The notes under the pieces: generated by a model
The model's input: only the letters and a program-made list of their open reading frames with translations
The model's database searches: none
What the model was told of the DNA's origin: nothing
Assembly: GCF_014836935.1 (NCBI RefSeq)
Contig: NZ_JACSPW010000015.1
Span: forward strand, 1 to 64,000
Origin: Solibacillus merdavium
GTDB taxonomy: Bacteria > Bacillota > Bacilli > Bacillales_A > Planococcaceae
Length of the DNA: 64,000 nt
Reading direction: 5' to 3'
Shown: positions 25,978 to 55,297 of the stretch, one piece after another
Layout of the letters: every line of letters begins with the position of its first letter
How positions within the stretch are numbered: the stretch's first letter is position 1
Program-made: the position numbers and the translations under genes

Positions 25978-26258
25978 TCGATCTGATTTTAAAAGCGGCA
26001 CTTGTATTATTTATGCTGGCAATCGCGCTGTCCCTTTACCGTGTGATAAAAGGACCTTCACTACCTGATCGCGCAATTGCACTAGATACCATTGGTGTAA
26101 ATTTAATTTCCGCGATTGCCATTGTCTCTATCGTATTAAATACAAAGGCGTTTTTAGAGGCTATTCTAATTTTAGGTATTTTAGCGTTTATCGGAACAAT
26201 TGCATTCTCGAAATATATCGAAAGAGGTGTCATTGTTGAACGTAAATCAGCTGATTGA
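25974..26258 (+). CDS. mrpF: Na+/H+ antiporter subunit MrpF
   Basis: This 94-residue three-helix subunit carries the MrpF pattern LYRVIKGPSLPDRAIALDTIGVNLISAIAI. The ATGA overlap with mrpE shows coupling. TGGAGGTGACACA precedes the start. Confidence 0.94.
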   Translation: MIDLILKAALVLFMLAIALSLYRVIKGPSLPDRAIALDTIGVNLISAIAIVSIVLNTKAFLEAILILGILAFIGTIAFSKYIERGVIVERKSAD

Positions 26259-26643
26259 GTTAATGGCGGCACTGCTTATTTTAGTTGGTGCCATCGTGAG
26301 TGTGATTAGTGCATTCGGTATGATTCGATTGCCGGACGTGTACACACGCTCGCATGCTGCGACGAAAAGTGCGACACTTTCTGTATTACTTTGCCTATTC
26401 GGTGGGTTCGTGTATTTTTGGATTCATGATGGCTATGTAAGTATTCGATTAATTTTAGGGATTATTTTCGTATTTATCACAGCACCGGTATCCGGACACT
26501 TAGTATGTCGGGCAGCGTATCGGTCACGCGTACCGCTAGCAGAAGGTTCTGGAGACGATGCCTTAAATGAAATTTTATTTGGCGAGGAAAATATCCAAGT
26601 AAAAGAAGAAGTAGAGGCAACATTAAAAGAAATTAAAGAATAA
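26236..26643 (+). CDS. mrpG: Na+/H+ antiporter subunit MrpG
   Basis: This 135-residue subunit has three helices and the MrpG motif FGMIRLPDVYTRSHAATKSATLSV, plus a charged C-terminal tail ending in KEEVEATLKEIKE. AGAGGTG at 26223-26229 lies six bases before a TTG at 26236, which is preferred to an in-frame ATG at 26200 lying inside mrpF. It overlaps mrpF by 23 bp and closes the operon. Confidence 0.93.
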   Translation: MNVNQLIELMAALLILVGAIVSVISAFGMIRLPDVYTRSHAATKSATLSVLLCLFGGFVYFWIHDGYVSIRLILGIIFVFITAPVSGHLVCRAAYRSRVPLAEGSGDDALNEILFGEENIQVKEEVEATLKEIKE

Positions 26644-26652
26644 ATATATAAG

Positions 26653-26695
26653 GCATTTTAGAAGTGGGGAATAGACACTTCTAAAATGCTTTTTT
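26653..26695 (+). terminator. Terminator of the mrp operon
   Basis: A perfect 14-bp stem, GCATTTTAGAAGTG (26653-26666) with its complement at 26676-26689, is followed by six T. Confidence 0.95.
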
Positions 26696-26714: not shown

Positions 26715-26921
26715 TTATCCACAATCTATAATAAATGATATTTATTATAGTAAAAAATTATATAAAAATTGATTTTATATAAAGAAATAGTGGATAGTTT
26801 TTAATCTCTAATTAAAGTTTTGTGGATAACTTTTGGTCAACCTGTTGAAAAATCGTGATTAAATTGTGTATAACTCAATCGAAAGTGGATAACTTTGTGG
26901 ATAAATAGTATATGTGGATAA
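26715..26921. promoter_or_regulatory. DnaA-box cluster
   Basis: Seven copies of the DnaA-box motif occur in 207 bp between the mrp terminator and the GntR promoter. TTATCCACA is at 26715-26723. TGTGGATAA is at 26821-26829, 26896-26904 and 26913-26921. TGTGTATAA, which also fits TTATNCACA, is at 26865-26873. AGTGGATAA (26884-26892) has one mismatch and AGTGGATAG (26789-26797) has two. Six of the seven point the same way. The region is very AT-rich. No dnaA or dnaN gene is present, so this is more likely a DnaA-binding or titration cluster than oriC. Confidence 0.8.
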
Positions 26922-26935
26922 TATTTCTCGTTTTA

Positions 26936-26964
26936 TTGACAAAAAAGCTAAGTTTATATATAGT
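26936..26964 (+). promoter_or_regulatory. SigA-type promoter of the GntR-ABC operon
   Basis: TTGACA at 26936-26941 is followed after 17 bp by TATAGT at 26959-26964. It lies 15 bp after the last DnaA box and 47 bp before the gene start. Confidence 0.75.
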
Positions 26965-26985
26965 ACATTACAACACTAATGTACT
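26962..26985. promoter_or_regulatory. Palindromic operator for the GntR regulator
   Basis: AGTACATTA (26962-26970) and its perfect inverted copy TAATGTACT (26977-26985) are separated by six bases. The left arm overlaps the -10 box, and the site ends about 25 bp before the regulator's start codon. This position fits autorepression by a YtrA-type GntR protein. Confidence 0.75.
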
Positions 26986-27010: not shown

Positions 27011-27382
27011 TTGAATTTCAATGGTCAAAATACAGCACCTATTTATATTCAGATTGCAGAATGGATTGAAAATGAAATATTAGCTGACCGGTTGCTTCCT
27101 GATGGCAAAGTGTATTCCCAATATCAGCTTGCGGAAATTTTTAATATTAACCCGGCAACAGCAGGGAAAGGACTAACGATTTTAGTTGAAAAAGAGATTT
27201 TATACAAAAAAAGGGGTCTTGGGATGTTTGTTGTAACAGATGCGAAACATCGAATTTTAACGACGCGCCGAAGTGAAACATTGACGAAGATGGCCAAGGA
27301 AATTGTACAGGAATCAAAGCGGTTGGGCGTACTGGATGAGGATCTGATTAAACTGATTAAGCATATTCAAAAAGAGGGGTGA
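27011..27382 (+). CDS. GntR-family regulator, YtrA type
   Basis: This 123-residue protein has a winged-helix GntR domain in residues 5-75 (PIYIQIAEWIENEILADRLLPDGKVYSQYQLAEIFNINPATAGKGLTILV) and only a short helical tail for dimerisation, as in YtrA. AAAGGAGGA (26997-27005) is directly followed by a TTG at 27011. Longer in-frame readings run through the promoter and operator and are rejected. It heads a four-gene ABC transporter operon that it probably represses until a ligand or cell-envelope signal is sensed. Confidence 0.9.
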   Translation: MNFNGQNTAPIYIQIAEWIENEILADRLLPDGKVYSQYQLAEIFNINPATAGKGLTILVEKEILYKKRGLGMFVVTDAKHRILTTRRSETLTKMAKEIVQESKRLGVLDEDLIKLIKHIQKEG

Positions 27383-27386
27383 GGAT

Positions 27387-28283
27387 ATGATTACGTGTAA
27401 ACAGTTGCAAAAGCATTATGGGAAAAAGGAGATTTTGACCGATGTTTCTTTTCAGATTGATGAACCAAAAATTATCGGACTCATTGGGCGAAATGGTGTG
27501 GGGAAATCAACTTTATTGAAAATAATAGCCGGTCATGCAAAAGCTTCAAAAGGATACATAGAAGTGGTCGGTCAAAAGCCTTTTCAAAACTTAACTGTTG
27601 CGGCAAATGTAATTTTTATAGAGGATGCGATGACGTTTCCGGCAGTTTTGACGTTAAAGGAAATTCTTGAATCCGCCAAAAAGTTTTACGCGAAGTTTGC
27701 GACGGATTTGGCTTTTAAGCTATTGAAGTTTAGTAATATATCGGAGAAAAATTATCATACCCAATTATCGAAAGGTCAAAAGGCTACGTTCAATCTAATT
27801 TACGGAATTGCCAGTCGTAGTGCCATTACCTTGCTGGATGAGCCAATGAATGGGATGGACGAAGCGATTCGGAATGATATGTACAGAGTGATTTTAAAGG
27901 ATTTTATAGCCTATCCACGTGTCATAATAATTTCGAGCCATTACTTAAATGAGATGGAGCAGTTGATTGAAGATATTTTACTGCTTCATAAAGGGAAAGT
28001 GGCGTTGTTTGCACCGGTAGAGGAAGTGCAGGAGCTGGCGGTAAAGCTCGTTGGACAAAAGGGAAATGTGGAGCCCGCTTTAGATAAATATGAGGTGCTC
28101 GCTACATATGAAAATGGTCCGATTTTTGAAGCGATTGTGAGAAAGAATGATTTGCCATTACCGGAGAATGTGCGGATGCTAAGCTTATCCGCAAGTGATG
28201 TATGTCAAGTATTAACGGCAACGGAAGGAGGATCCATTGATGACATCTATCGTAAAAGTGAGTACGGCGCGGAATATTTATGA
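27387..28283 (+). CDS. ABC transporter ATP-binding protein
   Basis: This 298-residue ATPase has Walker A GLIGRNGVGKSTL and Walker B ITLLDEPMNGMD. Its signature motif, LSKGQKATFNL, is divergent and replaces the usual LSGGQ. The H-loop is SSHYL. The last 80 residues are an accessory domain. It starts 4 bp after the regulator stop with a GGGGTGAGG ribosome site and overlaps the permease by 44 bp. It resembles the ATPases of GntR-linked transporters such as YtrB. Confidence 0.9.
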   Translation: MITCKQLQKHYGKKEILTDVSFQIDEPKIIGLIGRNGVGKSTLLKIIAGHAKASKGYIEVVGQKPFQNLTVAANVIFIEDAMTFPAVLTLKEILESAKKFYAKFATDLAFKLLKFSNISEKNYHTQLSKGQKATFNLIYGIASRSAITLLDEPMNGMDEAIRNDMYRVILKDFIAYPRVIIISSHYLNEMEQLIEDILLLHKGKVALFAPVEEVQELAVKLVGQKGNVEPALDKYEVLATYENGPIFEAIVRKNDLPLPENVRMLSLSASDVCQVLTATEGGSIDDIYRKSEYGAEYL

Positions 28284-28953
28284 GCAGGTAAAGTGGAAGT
28301 GTAAGGCGTATAGCTCGATGTTTAGTACGGTGCTGATTTTATATATTTTACTGACACTACTTTCAGGTGGTGGAAGTGGCTCTTTAGGGATGGGACGCAG
28401 CTTCGTTAGCTATAGGGAACAATATTATACATTGGATTCCCTCTTTATATTTACTGTTTTGACGATGTTCATATTTGGTTGGTTGCTTGCATCAAAGTCC
28501 ATTTCACGAGATAACTTTTCGATTGTCACGACAAGCTATACAGAAGCTATTTCATCTGCATTGTTCCTAGTTGTGCTATGTATTTTTACATTGGTTGCTG
28601 CAATCAGTACATTATGGATTTCGATATTGGTCGACATTTTACGTACGGGTGATTTATTTATATTTCATAGCATGGAATACTCATTGCTAACATTTATTAG
28701 TTTTACAGTTTGCTCGTTACTGGCAGCGTCGATTGGCTACTTTATCCATGTTGTGTTTGATTTTTCGAAAATTGTGTTTGCGCTTTTATGTGTAGGGATG
28801 TTTCTCCTCATTCGCCAGTATACGATTGAACTTTGGGGAATTCTTTTTGGGGGGAGCGCGTTTCAAATTATTGGGCGTAGTACAATTTATATTATTTTAT
28901 TGTGGCTGCTCATTGTATTGATGCGCCAACGTAGAGAGGTGACGCGCACATGA
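28240..28953 (+). CDS. ABC transporter permease-like membrane protein
   Basis: This 237-residue protein has about six hydrophobic helices, the likely membrane partner of the preceding ATPase. GGAAGGAGG precedes the ATG at 28240, which lies inside the ATPase gene. A TTG one codon earlier is also possible. The sequence matches no named permease family that I recognise, apart from its general ABC-2-like layout. A glycine-rich loop, SGGGSGSLGMG, follows the first helix. Confidence 0.8.
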   Translation: MTSIVKVSTARNIYEQVKWKCKAYSSMFSTVLILYILLTLLSGGGSGSLGMGRSFVSYREQYYTLDSLFIFTVLTMFIFGWLLASKSISRDNFSIVTTSYTEAISSALFLVVLCIFTLVAAISTLWISILVDILRTGDLFIFHSMEYSLLTFISFTVCSLLAASIGYFIHVVFDFSKIVFALLCVGMFLLIRQYTIELWGILFGGSAFQIIGRSTIYIILLWLLIVLMRQRREVTRT

Positions 28954-29621
28954 GTATCGCTTTATTGTATTTCTTTTTAGTAATTATAGGGGTAACAATA
29001 ACAGGTTTTTTCATAACGAAAATCCGTATTTGGAAGCCGAAACGGACATTGGTGTTTGTCGCTGTCTATTTTAGTTGTGGTCTTCTAGCCTTTGTCTATT
29101 TAATGTTTCTATCAGGCGATATCGCTAAAGCGCCTTCCAAAGAATTTTTACAAGAGCAGCGTATTGCTAATGAACAACTTTCAAGCGATTTAAAGTTACG
29201 AAAATTTGAAGGTTTAAAAGAAGAGCATTTAAAGTTTACGAAGACATTTGAAGCAACAGCAGAGAATATTGAAGTTATTCGCAATGAAGCCGGTCAGTAC
29301 TTACCTATCCATATTTCATGGGCTGAGTCGGGTGAAAATAAGATAACTGTATCCTATTATGAAACGCCACTTTATTTAAATGGTGTATATATTACGCCAT
29401 TTGTTGAAGAGCCTCGAATCGAATGGAATGATAATAAGCTTTATATTATAGAGGCAGATACGATGGTAACAGTAAAATCAGTGCACTTTTCTTCGCAACT
29501 GTTAAACATTGGTTTTCCTTCCCGGAATGATGATCCACTTTATAATTTAATAGGTCAACGTATTTTACACTTGAATGTTCCGAAACAGTTCAATATTATT
29601 GATAAGGATGGGTGGTATTAA
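28950..29621 (+). CDS. Membrane-anchored protein of the GntR-ABC operon, unknown function
   Basis: This is a 223-residue protein. Two N-terminal helices (about 3-23 and 33-53) are followed by a soluble domain of about 165 residues, rich in beta structure from residue 110. It probably lies outside the membrane or is held at its surface. The gene starts in an ATGA overlap with the permease, so it is part of the transporter operon. I do not recognise the family. It could be an accessory or substrate-binding subunit. Confidence 0.75.
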   Translation: MSIALLYFFLVIIGVTITGFFITKIRIWKPKRTLVFVAVYFSCGLLAFVYLMFLSGDIAKAPSKEFLQEQRIANEQLSSDLKLRKFEGLKEEHLKFTKTFEATAENIEVIRNEAGQYLPIHISWAESGENKITVSYYETPLYLNGVYITPFVEEPRIEWNDNKLYIIEADTMVTVKSVHFSSQLLNIGFPSRNDDPLYNLIGQRILHLNVPKQFNIIDKDGWY

Positions 29622-29658: not shown

Positions 29659-30477
29659 GTGTTGAAAAAGTTATTAAAGTTAATCATTTTTATAGTAGTT
29701 GTTTATATATTTTTATATGTTAATAATAATTGGCTTGTAACGACGGAGTATGTCCATGAGTCCGACAAAATTCCAGCGAGCTTTGATGGTTTTAAGATTA
29801 CGCAGGTGACCGATTTGCATGATGCAAGTTTTGGGGAAAATCAGTCACGTTTAGTGGAAAAAGTTAGGGCTACTAATCCAGATGCGATTTTCATTACGGG
29901 TGATTTAGTTGATAGTAGACGCTATGACCTGGAAAATAGCTTGCAGGCTGTTCGCCAATTTGTCAAGATTGCAGATGTTTACTATGTAATTGGAAATCAT
30001 GAGGTTGCGCTGAATTTGACGGATGAGATTTATGCAGCATTGATAGAAATTGGCGTCCATGTATTGCCGAATGAAGCGTTGTTATTAGAGCGTAATGGGG
30101 AACAAATCGTCATTGCAGGTATTGAGGACCCGCTGATGGGGCAGGATGTAGAGCAATCAATTGATCAGGCCATGCAAAATATTAATAAGGATTTGTTTAC
30201 AATTTTGTTATCGCATCGTCCAGAACAGTTTGAAGCCTATGTGAAAAAGGATATTGATTTAGTGATGACAGGTCATGCCCATGGGGGACAAATTCGAGTG
30301 CCTTTTATTGGGGGACTTGTTGCACCTTCGCAAGGTATGATGCCGAAATATTCAGCGGGAATTTTTGAAGAACAACAAACGAAGATGGTTGTAAATAGAG
30401 GGTTAGGTAATAGTCTGTTTCCTTATCGAATCTTAAATCTACCTGAAATCTATGTCATCCAATTAAATAAAAAATAG
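29659..30477 (+). CDS. Membrane-anchored metallophosphoesterase (YkuE/YpbG-like)
   Basis: This 272-residue protein has an N-terminal helix (res 4-22) and a calcineurin-type phosphoesterase domain. The metal ligands are visible in TDLHD, ITGDLVDSRR, IGNHE, LLSHRP and GHAHGGQ. It hydrolyses a phosphate ester at the membrane, perhaps a lipid, as in the LpxH/YkuE-like group. The start is a GTG or the adjacent TTG, with only a weak ribosome site. Confidence 0.88.
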   Translation: MLKKLLKLIIFIVVVYIFLYVNNNWLVTTEYVHESDKIPASFDGFKITQVTDLHDASFGENQSRLVEKVRATNPDAIFITGDLVDSRRYDLENSLQAVRQFVKIADVYYVIGNHEVALNLTDEIYAALIEIGVHVLPNEALLLERNGEQIVIAGIEDPLMGQDVEQSIDQAMQNINKDLFTILLSHRPEQFEAYVKKDIDLVMTGHAHGGQIRVPFIGGLVAPSQGMMPKYSAGIFEEQQTKMVVNRGLGNSLFPYRILNLPEIYVIQLNKK

Positions 30478-53667: not shown

Positions 53668-53839
53668 TGAAAGGGCATATCGATTGCTACTTGAGTTCGT
53701 ATGAGTACACCACCATTCTAATCCGGACTAGTAGAGCGGTATGCTTTTCTTATGGAAAAAATTAATTTTCTTTTCATGCACTTCTAAATTTTGTTATATT
53801 TTTTATAGAGAATAGGCGTAGGGAAGGAGGGTGATATTG

Positions 53840-55297
53840 TTGTTGCTTTCATTTGATGAGCAGCTCTTTCAACAAACGAATGGACAAATAGGGGAGAGGC
53901 TAGAGCAAGCTTTGGAAGAACGATCTCTGTTTGATAAACAACCCCCTATTTGGGGCGCCCCCATGTATAGTGACGACTTTTTGCTAAAGCAGGAGCGTGC
54001 GGAGAAATTTTGTTTTCAGCTATTGAAATACTATTGGGGTAAATTTAATTTGTTTTTTTACGATTCTTTTAGCAAGGCCAATATGAATGTCGATATGGCC
54101 AATGAAAAGATGGAACAATTTTTTGCAGAACCACAAAACAGTAAACAACTATTCACATTTTTACATACGCAAGGGGAAGTCGAATTTGATCAGCTTATAG
54201 AATTTATTTTTGCAAAGCCTATTAGAACACCGAGTTCACAAACAGGGCTTACTAAAATCTATGTATATAAAATCAACAATTGTTTTCTTGTACAGCCCAT
54301 CTATTGTGAGCACGAAAAGTTCTGGCAGGTAATTGGTGCCAAAAAAATATATTCGCTATTTCTACAGCTTCCTTTGAAGAAAATTTCACGCCCTGCGGAA
54401 TTAATGACAACCTTTAAAGCACTGCTTGTCGGGCAATTAACCGTTAATCGAGTGGCGACAATCGTTCATAAGCTGGTACAAAAAATCGATTTCGAAAATC
54501 CGAAATCTGATGAATTAAAGCAGCTCCATCTATTGAATGTCCGCACACATTTTACGAGTGGGCGCCGCCATATGTTAAAGCTCCGCAAATGCATCTATAC
54601 ACTGCAGCGGAATTGGTCGACCGGGCAGTTTGCGCTCAACAACAAAGAGTACACGCTGCTCGGATACATGCTATTCCAAGAGGCTGTTTTTAAAAAGGAT
54701 TACAAAAATATTTTGATGCAGGGTATGTACTTGATTGAAGAAGAGCGATTGAATAACCACGCCATTGAGCTTGTCGTAGAATATACGGATGTATTAAGCA
54801 GCATGAATCCACAGCCATACGCACTCGTTAAGCATTATCGAAAAAACTATTTAGAGCATGTTTTTTATGAACTCATTGATAGCATAGTAAAAGAGGAGAA
54901 ATTTGAGCAAGGGATCGAGTTATTGAAAAACTATGAGCTTGTAACTTGTACAGCAATTTTCGAGCTGTTGCAATCTGCTGACTATGAGGATATTCTACAT
55001 AAAATTGAGGCAACGGTTCAGCGCGATATCGCCATTTTAGTGGACGGCTCTATCCATAAAGTACGGGAATCGCTCGCGACCTGGCAAAGTGAATATTTGA
55101 ATGCGGGGAGTTCGTATCATGCGATTGCTATAATGTCATCTCAGCATGTTTGTAATCTCCTGAAAATCCTGTTTTATGCAGAGGAAGATAACTTAGTGGA
55201 AAAGTTATTGGCCGTATATAAGAAGTATTTACTCGTACCGGCTCATTTTCATAATTTGCGTCAATTTATTGAGCATCGCGTGATGGTAACCCGTTAA
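53840..55297 (+). CDS. Unknown protein, about 485 residues
   Basis: I do not recognise this protein. It has no signal peptide or clear membrane helix and is mostly helical, with many charged and aromatic residues. The C-terminal half, from about 290, has a TPR-like rhythm (LLGYMLFQEAVFKKDYKNILMQGMYLIEEERLNNHAIELVVEYTDVL). Three TTG codons in a row (53837, 53840, 53843) follow GGAGG at 53826-53830, and the middle one is used here. A strong terminator follows. Confidence 0.75.
   Translation: MLLSFDEQLFQQTNGQIGERLEQALEERSLFDKQPPIWGAPMYSDDFLLKQERAEKFCFQLLKYYWGKFNLFFYDSFSKANMNVDMANEKMEQFFAEPQNSKQLFTFLHTQGEVEFDQLIEFIFAKPIRTPSSQTGLTKIYVYKINNCFLVQPIYCEHEKFWQVIGAKKIYSLFLQLPLKKISRPAELMTTFKALLVGQLTVNRVATIVHKLVQKIDFENPKSDELKQLHLLNVRTHFTSGRRHMLKLRKCIYTLQRNWSTGQFALNNKEYTLLGYMLFQEAVFKKDYKNILMQGMYLIEEERLNNHAIELVVEYTDVLSSMNPQPYALVKHYRKNYLEHVFYELIDSIVKEEKFEQGIELLKNYELVTCTAIFELLQSADYEDILHKIEATVQRDIAILVDGSIHKVRESLATWQSEYLNAGSSYHAIAIMSSQHVCNLLKILFYAEEDNLVEKLLAVYKKYLLVPAHFHNLRQFIEHRVMVTR

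Follow-up and report, generated by a model that had tools for sequence, protein, structure and literature searches.

Why does a stretch of AT-rich, non-coding DNA just behind an Na+/H+ antiporter operon of Solibacillus merdavium hold an array of DnaA boxes, and what would such an array do there? The question concerns positions 26715-26921 of the window (by which we mean the whole 64,000-nucleotide stretch of DNA that was analysed), and it touches on an unsettled issue, namely whether uptake by chromosomal DnaA boxes times the initiation of replication in Gram-positive bacteria. We consider it probable (roughly 0.73) that the array is a chromosomal DnaA-box cluster of the kind known from Bacillus subtilis, which would take up DnaA after initiation and limit early re-initiation.

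Density and composition of the array

Five exact matches to TTATNCACA and two near matches lie within the 207 bp (Table 1), six of the seven on the minus strand, so that the site listing bears out what the first-pass annotation of this DNA had claimed about their number and common orientation. For the 64-kb window as a whole the total is unremarkable (seven exact sites against 3.96 expected, a number reached in 9 of 100 shuffles); it is the clustering, rather than the window total, that is unusual. Genome-wide, 222 exact TTATNCACA sites are present in 3.78 Mb (56 contigs), compared with 197 for the reversed control pattern, which gives an expectation of 0.012 exact sites per 207 bp. The Poisson probability of at least five exact sites at a given place is then 2e-12, or about 8e-6 when summed over all genome positions, and the claim of a density above chance holds accordingly. 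Additionally, the pair pattern TTATNCACA-N0-30-TTATNCACA has five matches in the genome, two of them in 26715-26921, and none for the reversed control. Several boxes within a few hundred bp, beyond chance, are thus found here as in a B. subtilis-type cluster.

One conserved element was missing from the earlier box list although it is fully invariant in 15 genus genomes. This is the block TGTTGAAAA at 26843-26851, midway between boxes 2 and 3 at 22 bp from either, which from its sequence is possibly a weak DnaA site and is treated here as a candidate.

Table 1. Features in and around the box array, with the remaining clusters of the source genome (window positions unless a contig is given).
Feature	Position	Strand	Remarks
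mrpG/mnhG, last gene of Mrp Na+/H+ antiporter operon	26200-26643	+	Pfam PhaG_MnhG_YufB 5e-24; TTG-started ORF as listed
Inverted repeat, 17-nt arms, 94% complementary, with T run, just 3' of mrpG	26650-26692	+	
DnaA box 1, TTATCCACA	26715-26723	+	exact; present also in G003 and S. faecavium (L024, L039), other genus members without it
Weak DnaA-box-like site CTATCCACT, two mismatches	26789-26797	-	unconserved in 15-genome genus alignment
DnaA box 2, TTATCCACA	26821-26829	-	exact; 8/9 columns invariant (15 genus genomes)
Block TGTTGAAAA	26843-26851	-	minus strand TTTTCAACA, two mismatches to TTATNCACA; 9/9 columns invariant (15 genus genomes)
DnaA box 3, TTATACACA	26865-26873	-	exact; position kept, 6/9 columns invariant; some genus members with near matches, e.g., TTACCCACA
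Near-match box 4, TTATCCACT, one mismatch	26884-26892	-	7/9 columns invariant; six genus members with exact TTAT[AG]CACA
DnaA box 5, TTATCCACA	26896-26904	-	exact; 9/9 columns invariant (15 genus genomes)
DnaA box 6, TTATCCACA	26913-26921	-	exact; 7/9 columns invariant (15 genus genomes)
Probable sigma-A promoter of GntR-ABC operon, TTGACA-17-TATAGT	26936-26964	+	11/12 matches; largely conserved in genus alignment
Palindrome AGTACATTA-N6-TAATGTACT over -10/+1 region	26962-26985	.	largely conserved in genus alignment
Short GntR-type regulator, 123 aa from TTG 27011	27011-27382	+	Pfam GntR E 1e-4, 22.4 bits, below cut-off of 27
ABC ATPase and two more ORFs without Pfam match, 3' of GntR	27387-29621	+	
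Metallophosphoesterase	29659-30477	+	homologue is first recognised gene 3' of cluster in 11/41 cluster-bearing loci
Cluster	C56:115.2-115.6 kb		between RlmH and HtrA-like protease (HtrA score below NCBIfam cut-off)
Cluster	C14:41.6-41.8 kb		between ABC-F protein and TsaD
Cluster	C43:73.2-73.6 kb		junction of TIGR00057 (TsaC/YwlC-type) gene and SpoIIR-like gene; boxes inside both frames

Flanking genes and promoter

Eight of the 10 neighbouring products that were run against Pfam gave a match (Mrp subunits, GntR, ABC, phosphoesterase, rhodanese, tRNA-synthetase-like, Usp). The inverted repeat behind mrpG is, judging from its arms and T run, the probable terminator of the mrp operon; a consensus terminator scan found none. 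On the other side of the array, the last box ends 15 bp before the probable -35 element, so the description of the cluster as lying directly upstream of the GntR-ABC promoter is correct in the source genome; the sigma-A promoter scan gave two sites overall, compared with 3.1 in shuffles. The palindrome at 26962-26985 is the probable operator of the GntR protein, whose listed ORF begins at 26912. Identity of the ABC/GntR operon with the Pmt system was considered and rejected, as the NCBIfam scores fall far below their cut-offs (35 vs 200; 103 vs 350), and a structured RNA within the stretch was likewise discarded since no Rfam family matched at gathering thresholds.

Constraint within Solibacillus

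The array is found 3' of mrpG in all 16 Solibacillus genomes, with 2-6 exact boxes in each, the closest named loci being those of S. faecavium and S. palustris. Loss of the boxes in close relatives that keep the flanking genes, which had been named beforehand as evidence against the element, was therefore looked for in the genus and the boxes proved to be retained in 16/16. A GntR gene is next to the cluster in 15 of these genomes; in the remaining one (G011) the cluster and GntR are separated by an SDR gene, and this genome was left out of the alignment, which thus counts five boxes in 15 copies with GntR directly next. Invariant columns number 37 of 45 in the boxes and 22 of 114 elsewhere in 26771-26929 (Fisher p = 2e-13, a nominal value that ignores the kinship of the 15 genomes and the correlation between columns), and the boxes are therefore conserved under constraint. 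Nine of the 22 invariant non-box columns form one block, TGTTGAAAA, and within 26821-26921 the invariant between-box columns amount to 17/56. The upstream boxes vary in number and orientation among the genus members, and the distance between the last box and the -35 element does not vary in the 15 aligned genomes, bar one 1-nt insertion.

The mrpG locus in other genera

Outside the genus, 60 mrpG loci, mostly of the nearest genera, were sampled from at least 241 non-Solibacillus genomes with an mrpG match (g2, g4, g5, g12, g13 and g16 lie outside the sample), and a cluster was counted as present when 300 bp within the first 1000 bp held two or more exact boxes and, with up to one mismatch allowed, four or more boxes in all, a threshold set post hoc. 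By this count the cluster is present at 25 of the 60 loci: 25/35 in four genera (17/24 in g18, Ureibacillus; 5/5 in g11, Metasolibacillus; 2/3 in g3; 1/3 in g9) and 0/25 in eight others (0/13 in g8, 0/1 in g6 with one exact box and five in all, 0/11 in six further genera). Loci just below the threshold were L128 (one exact box, seven in all), L139 (one, five), L109 (one, four) and L104 (none, four), while the reversed-pattern control gave at least four sites at 0/60 loci and two exact sites at 1/60. The retention seen in the genus does not extend to all relatives, as the boxes are absent at 35 of the 60 sampled loci (including 13/13 in g8 and 7/24 in g18), so that the element is lineage-limited and dispensable on evolutionary time.

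Together with the 16 Solibacillus loci, 41 of 76 mrpG loci bear the cluster. The gene mrpG is always on its other side, the loci themselves having been found via mrpG, and the first recognised downstream gene is GntR at 21 (15 in Solibacillus and six elsewhere), metallophosphoesterase at 11, NERD at seven, SDR at one and an oxidoreductase at one; as next gene we counted whichever of five query families tblastn placed first within 1.5 kb, with the queries for NERD, SDR and oxidoreductase taken from the set's own loci. In none of the 25 cluster-bearing loci of other genera does the interval between mrpG and this next gene contain a complete open frame of at least 100 aa. Where NERD comes next in g11 (four loci), the NERD match includes the last box. 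The downstream neighbour is exchanged from locus to locus, whereas the array remains beside mrpG and is independent of the downstream gene. Box spacing varies between genera, which indicates that what is kept is an array and not a particular layout of boxes. Apart from the boxes, a repeat of about 113 bp, seen as repeated short ORFs, lies in the Ureibacillus acetophenoni locus (L041:9172-9894), with the NERD gene on one side and GntR on the other.

Distance from oriC

The first-pass annotation placed the cluster far from any dnaA gene. This is true of the source draft, in which dnaA is on another contig (C56:153.5 kb), but not of the genus, where mrpG lies 137-203 kb downstream of dnaA, i.e., near oriC, in 10 of the 11 genomes that have both on one contig. 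The two genes are on separate contigs in 5/16 genus genomes, the source draft included, and the distance for the source genome is inferred from its relatives. In G012, mrpG would be about 214 kb away on the other side of dnaA if contig C1 (3,996,048 bases) is treated as closed; the array of this genome, though present, is weaker, with two exact boxes. Of 18 genomes tested from other genera, 16 have dnaA and mrpG on a single contig, at 134-248 kb from each other, cluster or no cluster. The array in the relatives is thus outside oriC and close to it, which is also the position of a B. subtilis-type cluster.

Other clusters of the source genome

The genome's own oriC has five TTATCCACA boxes upstream of dnaA, which are the same word as the boxes of the array, and box arrays are present on both sides of dnaA, similar to the bipartite origin that PMC5295017 describes for B. 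subtilis. The DnaA of the source genome contains the C-terminal DNA-binding domain PF08299 (E 3.5e-29). Two other genomes (G010 and G014) each give 16 hits to the DnaA ATPase family, of which those other than dnaA score low, several with repeated scores; the additional ones are probably multi-copy transposition helper ATPases.

A genome-wide count of clusters, which had been suggested as a check, started from 67 TTATCCACA positions and five exact pairs and gave four clusters outside oriC, the array at mrpG included; as the list is based on TTATCCACA positions and exact pairs at most 30 bp apart, wider-spaced clusters of other variants could escape it. From gene order, we take the RlmH, ABC-F/TsaD and TsaC/YwlC-type loci of Table 1 to be the B. 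subtilis loci yydA, ydiF/gcp and ywlC, so that three of the four clusters would be at loci clustered in B. subtilis too; the SpoIIR-like gene at the C43 cluster scores below its NCBIfam cut-off. A back-to-back TTATCCACA pair at C56:149932-149949 lies between genes read as trmE and jag (putative) and resembles the trmE cluster of B. subtilis. Unlike B. subtilis, which has a cluster at yqeG, the source genome has no exact box in 3.5 kb around yqeG.

Since the gcp/ydiF cluster is mostly left of oriC while mrpG is on the right, a rule of one cluster per chromosome arm was considered. The gcp/ydiF cluster is on the left in 8 of 9 placed genomes (G006, G009, G015, G071, G237, G248, G250 and G255, with G248 and G250 matched on the ydiF side only) and on the right in G253; the rule was dropped because the ywlC cluster is also right of oriC in 3 of 4 placed genomes (G008, G033 and G250, with G253 on the left).

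Proposed function and alternatives

Because the array has the same boxes as the genome's own oriC and the genome's DnaA has a standard DNA-binding domain, DnaA very probably binds at the array. The best-supported effect, by analogy with B. subtilis, would be uptake of DnaA soon after initiation. DnaA would bind the non-coding array, which at about 140-200 kb from oriC would be duplicated soon after initiation; the duplicated array would take up free DnaA, and the lowered amount of free DnaA may help to keep replication from being initiated again too early. The likeness to the B. subtilis clusters, already drawn in the first-pass annotation, is well supported by the genome's cluster set, the three shared loci and the conservation in the genus and in four further genera.

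It could also be proposed that the cluster mainly lets DnaA repress or activate the GntR-ABC operon, which we regard as unlikely. Several findings speak for such a switch. The near-constant spacing between the last box, 15 bp 5' of the -35 element, and this promoter in the 15 genus genomes would be unneeded for titration, and for the most part the GntR palindrome is conserved in the genus too. Among the 25 cluster-bearing loci of other genera, six have GntR next (at L144 behind a weak NERD match), and in B. subtilis DnaA is reported to act on sda, ywlC, vpr and other promoters (PMC4447404). However, the first recognised gene is other than GntR at 20 of the 41 cluster-bearing loci, including Solibacillus G011, so boxes and a regulated gene are not conserved together as would be expected of a promoter of the sda type. 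Among 31 GntR homologues from other named genomes (L041-L071), a single one is preceded by an exact box, and by one only, in the 600 bp upstream, although at L041, L042 and L044 the cluster is present at a greater distance upstream, and the last exact box is about 116-174 bp from GntR in L124, L131, L133, L136, L144 and L145, compared with 98-121 bp in Solibacillus. As the downstream gene changes and mrpG stays, a titration-type element is favoured over a GntR-ABC switch, and regulation of this operon as the main conserved function is rejected for the same reason. The earlier suggestion that DnaA could affect the operon is consequently weakened as a general function (GntR next at 21/41) and survives in a narrower form, as a possible secondary effect of bound DnaA on the GntR-ABC promoter inside Solibacillus, where the spacing is constant.

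That the sites belong to another protein whose target resembles the DnaA box, or are a functionless repeat, appears improbable to us. Evidence from sequence leaves some room for it, as does the equal conservation of the block TGTTGAAAA, which is not an obvious box, but the word of the array is identical to the oriC boxes, the box columns are strongly constrained and Rfam gave no family in the region. We give hardly any weight to a remnant or secondary replication origin, or a duplicate of oriC: AT-rich DNA with several DnaA boxes would suit it, whereas DnaA and DnaN are absent among the 10 neighbouring products run in Pfam and the genome's own box arrays already flank dnaA on both sides, and it was set aside as the locus offers no supporting features.

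Relation to known DnaA-binding loci

The uptake of DnaA proposed above draws on B. subtilis. Removal of six clusters leads to early initiation (PMC5295017 and PMC13220808, with Okumura 2012 cited via these reviews). Against an uptake effect, removal acted strongly only when all six were taken out together (PMC5295017), clusters with significant roles are said in these reviews not to have been identified, and about 10-fold overproduction of DnaA caused no over-initiation (PMC13220808). According to PMC4447404, the eight strongest in vitro regions are two parts of oriC, ywcI/vpr, gcp/ydiF, trmE, ywlC, sda/yqeG and yydA, with an apparent Kd of DnaA (ATP form) of 0.16 µM for yydA, 0.15 µM for gcp/ydiF and 0.25 µM for ywlC.

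As in B. subtilis, the array consists of TTATNCACA-type boxes outside oriC, and three loci are common to both. Unlike these three, mrp is absent from the 20 strongest DnaA-binding regions tabled in PMC4447404, and its text nowhere mentions mrp; the mrp locus is thus not a reported cluster locus of B. subtilis, though the function would not require a shared locus. In the open-licence literature we found no paper on such clusters in this family. The cluster 3' of mrpG is a known kind of element at a locus not reported for B. subtilis.

The array is also comparable to datA of Escherichia coli, a non-coding DnaA-box locus away from oriC, whose known effect, lowered initiation, is the one proposed here. 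Unlike the array, which is known from its sequence, datA acts with IHF and promotes hydrolysis of DnaA-bound ATP (PMC5295017), and IHF, datA and DARS are stated in PMC13220808 to be absent from B. subtilis. With promoters of the sda type the array shares boxes just 5' of a promoter at near-constant spacing within the genus, but the downstream gene here varies across genera while the cluster is kept. Genomes with and without a given cluster are natural variants in which the proposed role can be tested.

A coding array in a sister genus

In the sister genus g8, where 0/13 mrpG loci have the cluster, an exact box pair is present at 183-274 kb from dnaA, again on this side of oriC, in 8/8 genomes searched (selected from the 32 of the genus as having few contigs; five of the eight are shared with the 13, and the distance in G069 was computed across a contig end). 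Each of the places L165-L167, L169, L170, L172, L195 and L196 holds four or five exact boxes in some 150 bp. These boxes are inside the coding sequence of a protein without a Pfam match (L166 scanned), which is 32-34% identical to the product of the window ORF 53831-55297; this homologue holds no exact box. At L166, third codon positions are invariant at 13/15 inside the boxes (five boxes, one of them exact in two genomes only) vs 123/476 elsewhere, and from these sequences there seems to be constraint at the DNA level on top of that on the protein. Constrained clusters, one at a new locus and one inside a coding gene of g8, are independent evidence that such arrays are selected.

The g8 array, together with the absence of the mrpG cluster, fits a sink relocated between loci, with no descent of either array from the other implied. 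To generalise, an early-replicated DnaA sink to the right of oriC might be kept by distance and not by gene, with clusters turning over between loci as a part of initiation control; this is a tentative idea, and we find it rather unlikely. In its support are the distances of mrpG (137-203 kb) in Solibacillus and several genera and of the g8 array (183-274 kb). Against it, a single B. subtilis cluster re-inserted at various locations gave partial relief (PMC5295017), mrpG is oriC-proximal also in cluster-free genomes, and G012 seems to be opposite-sided.

Two further groupings of boxes were seen among the genomes searched. About 350 kb left of oriC in g8, three exact boxes are grouped at L202 (G042) and L206 (G063), a locus that gave no match to nine query genes from known clusters. 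In G055 (C1:4878979-4879182), five exact TTATTCACA pairs follow one another at 39-bp steps, which is probably a coding repeat and not a DnaA array.
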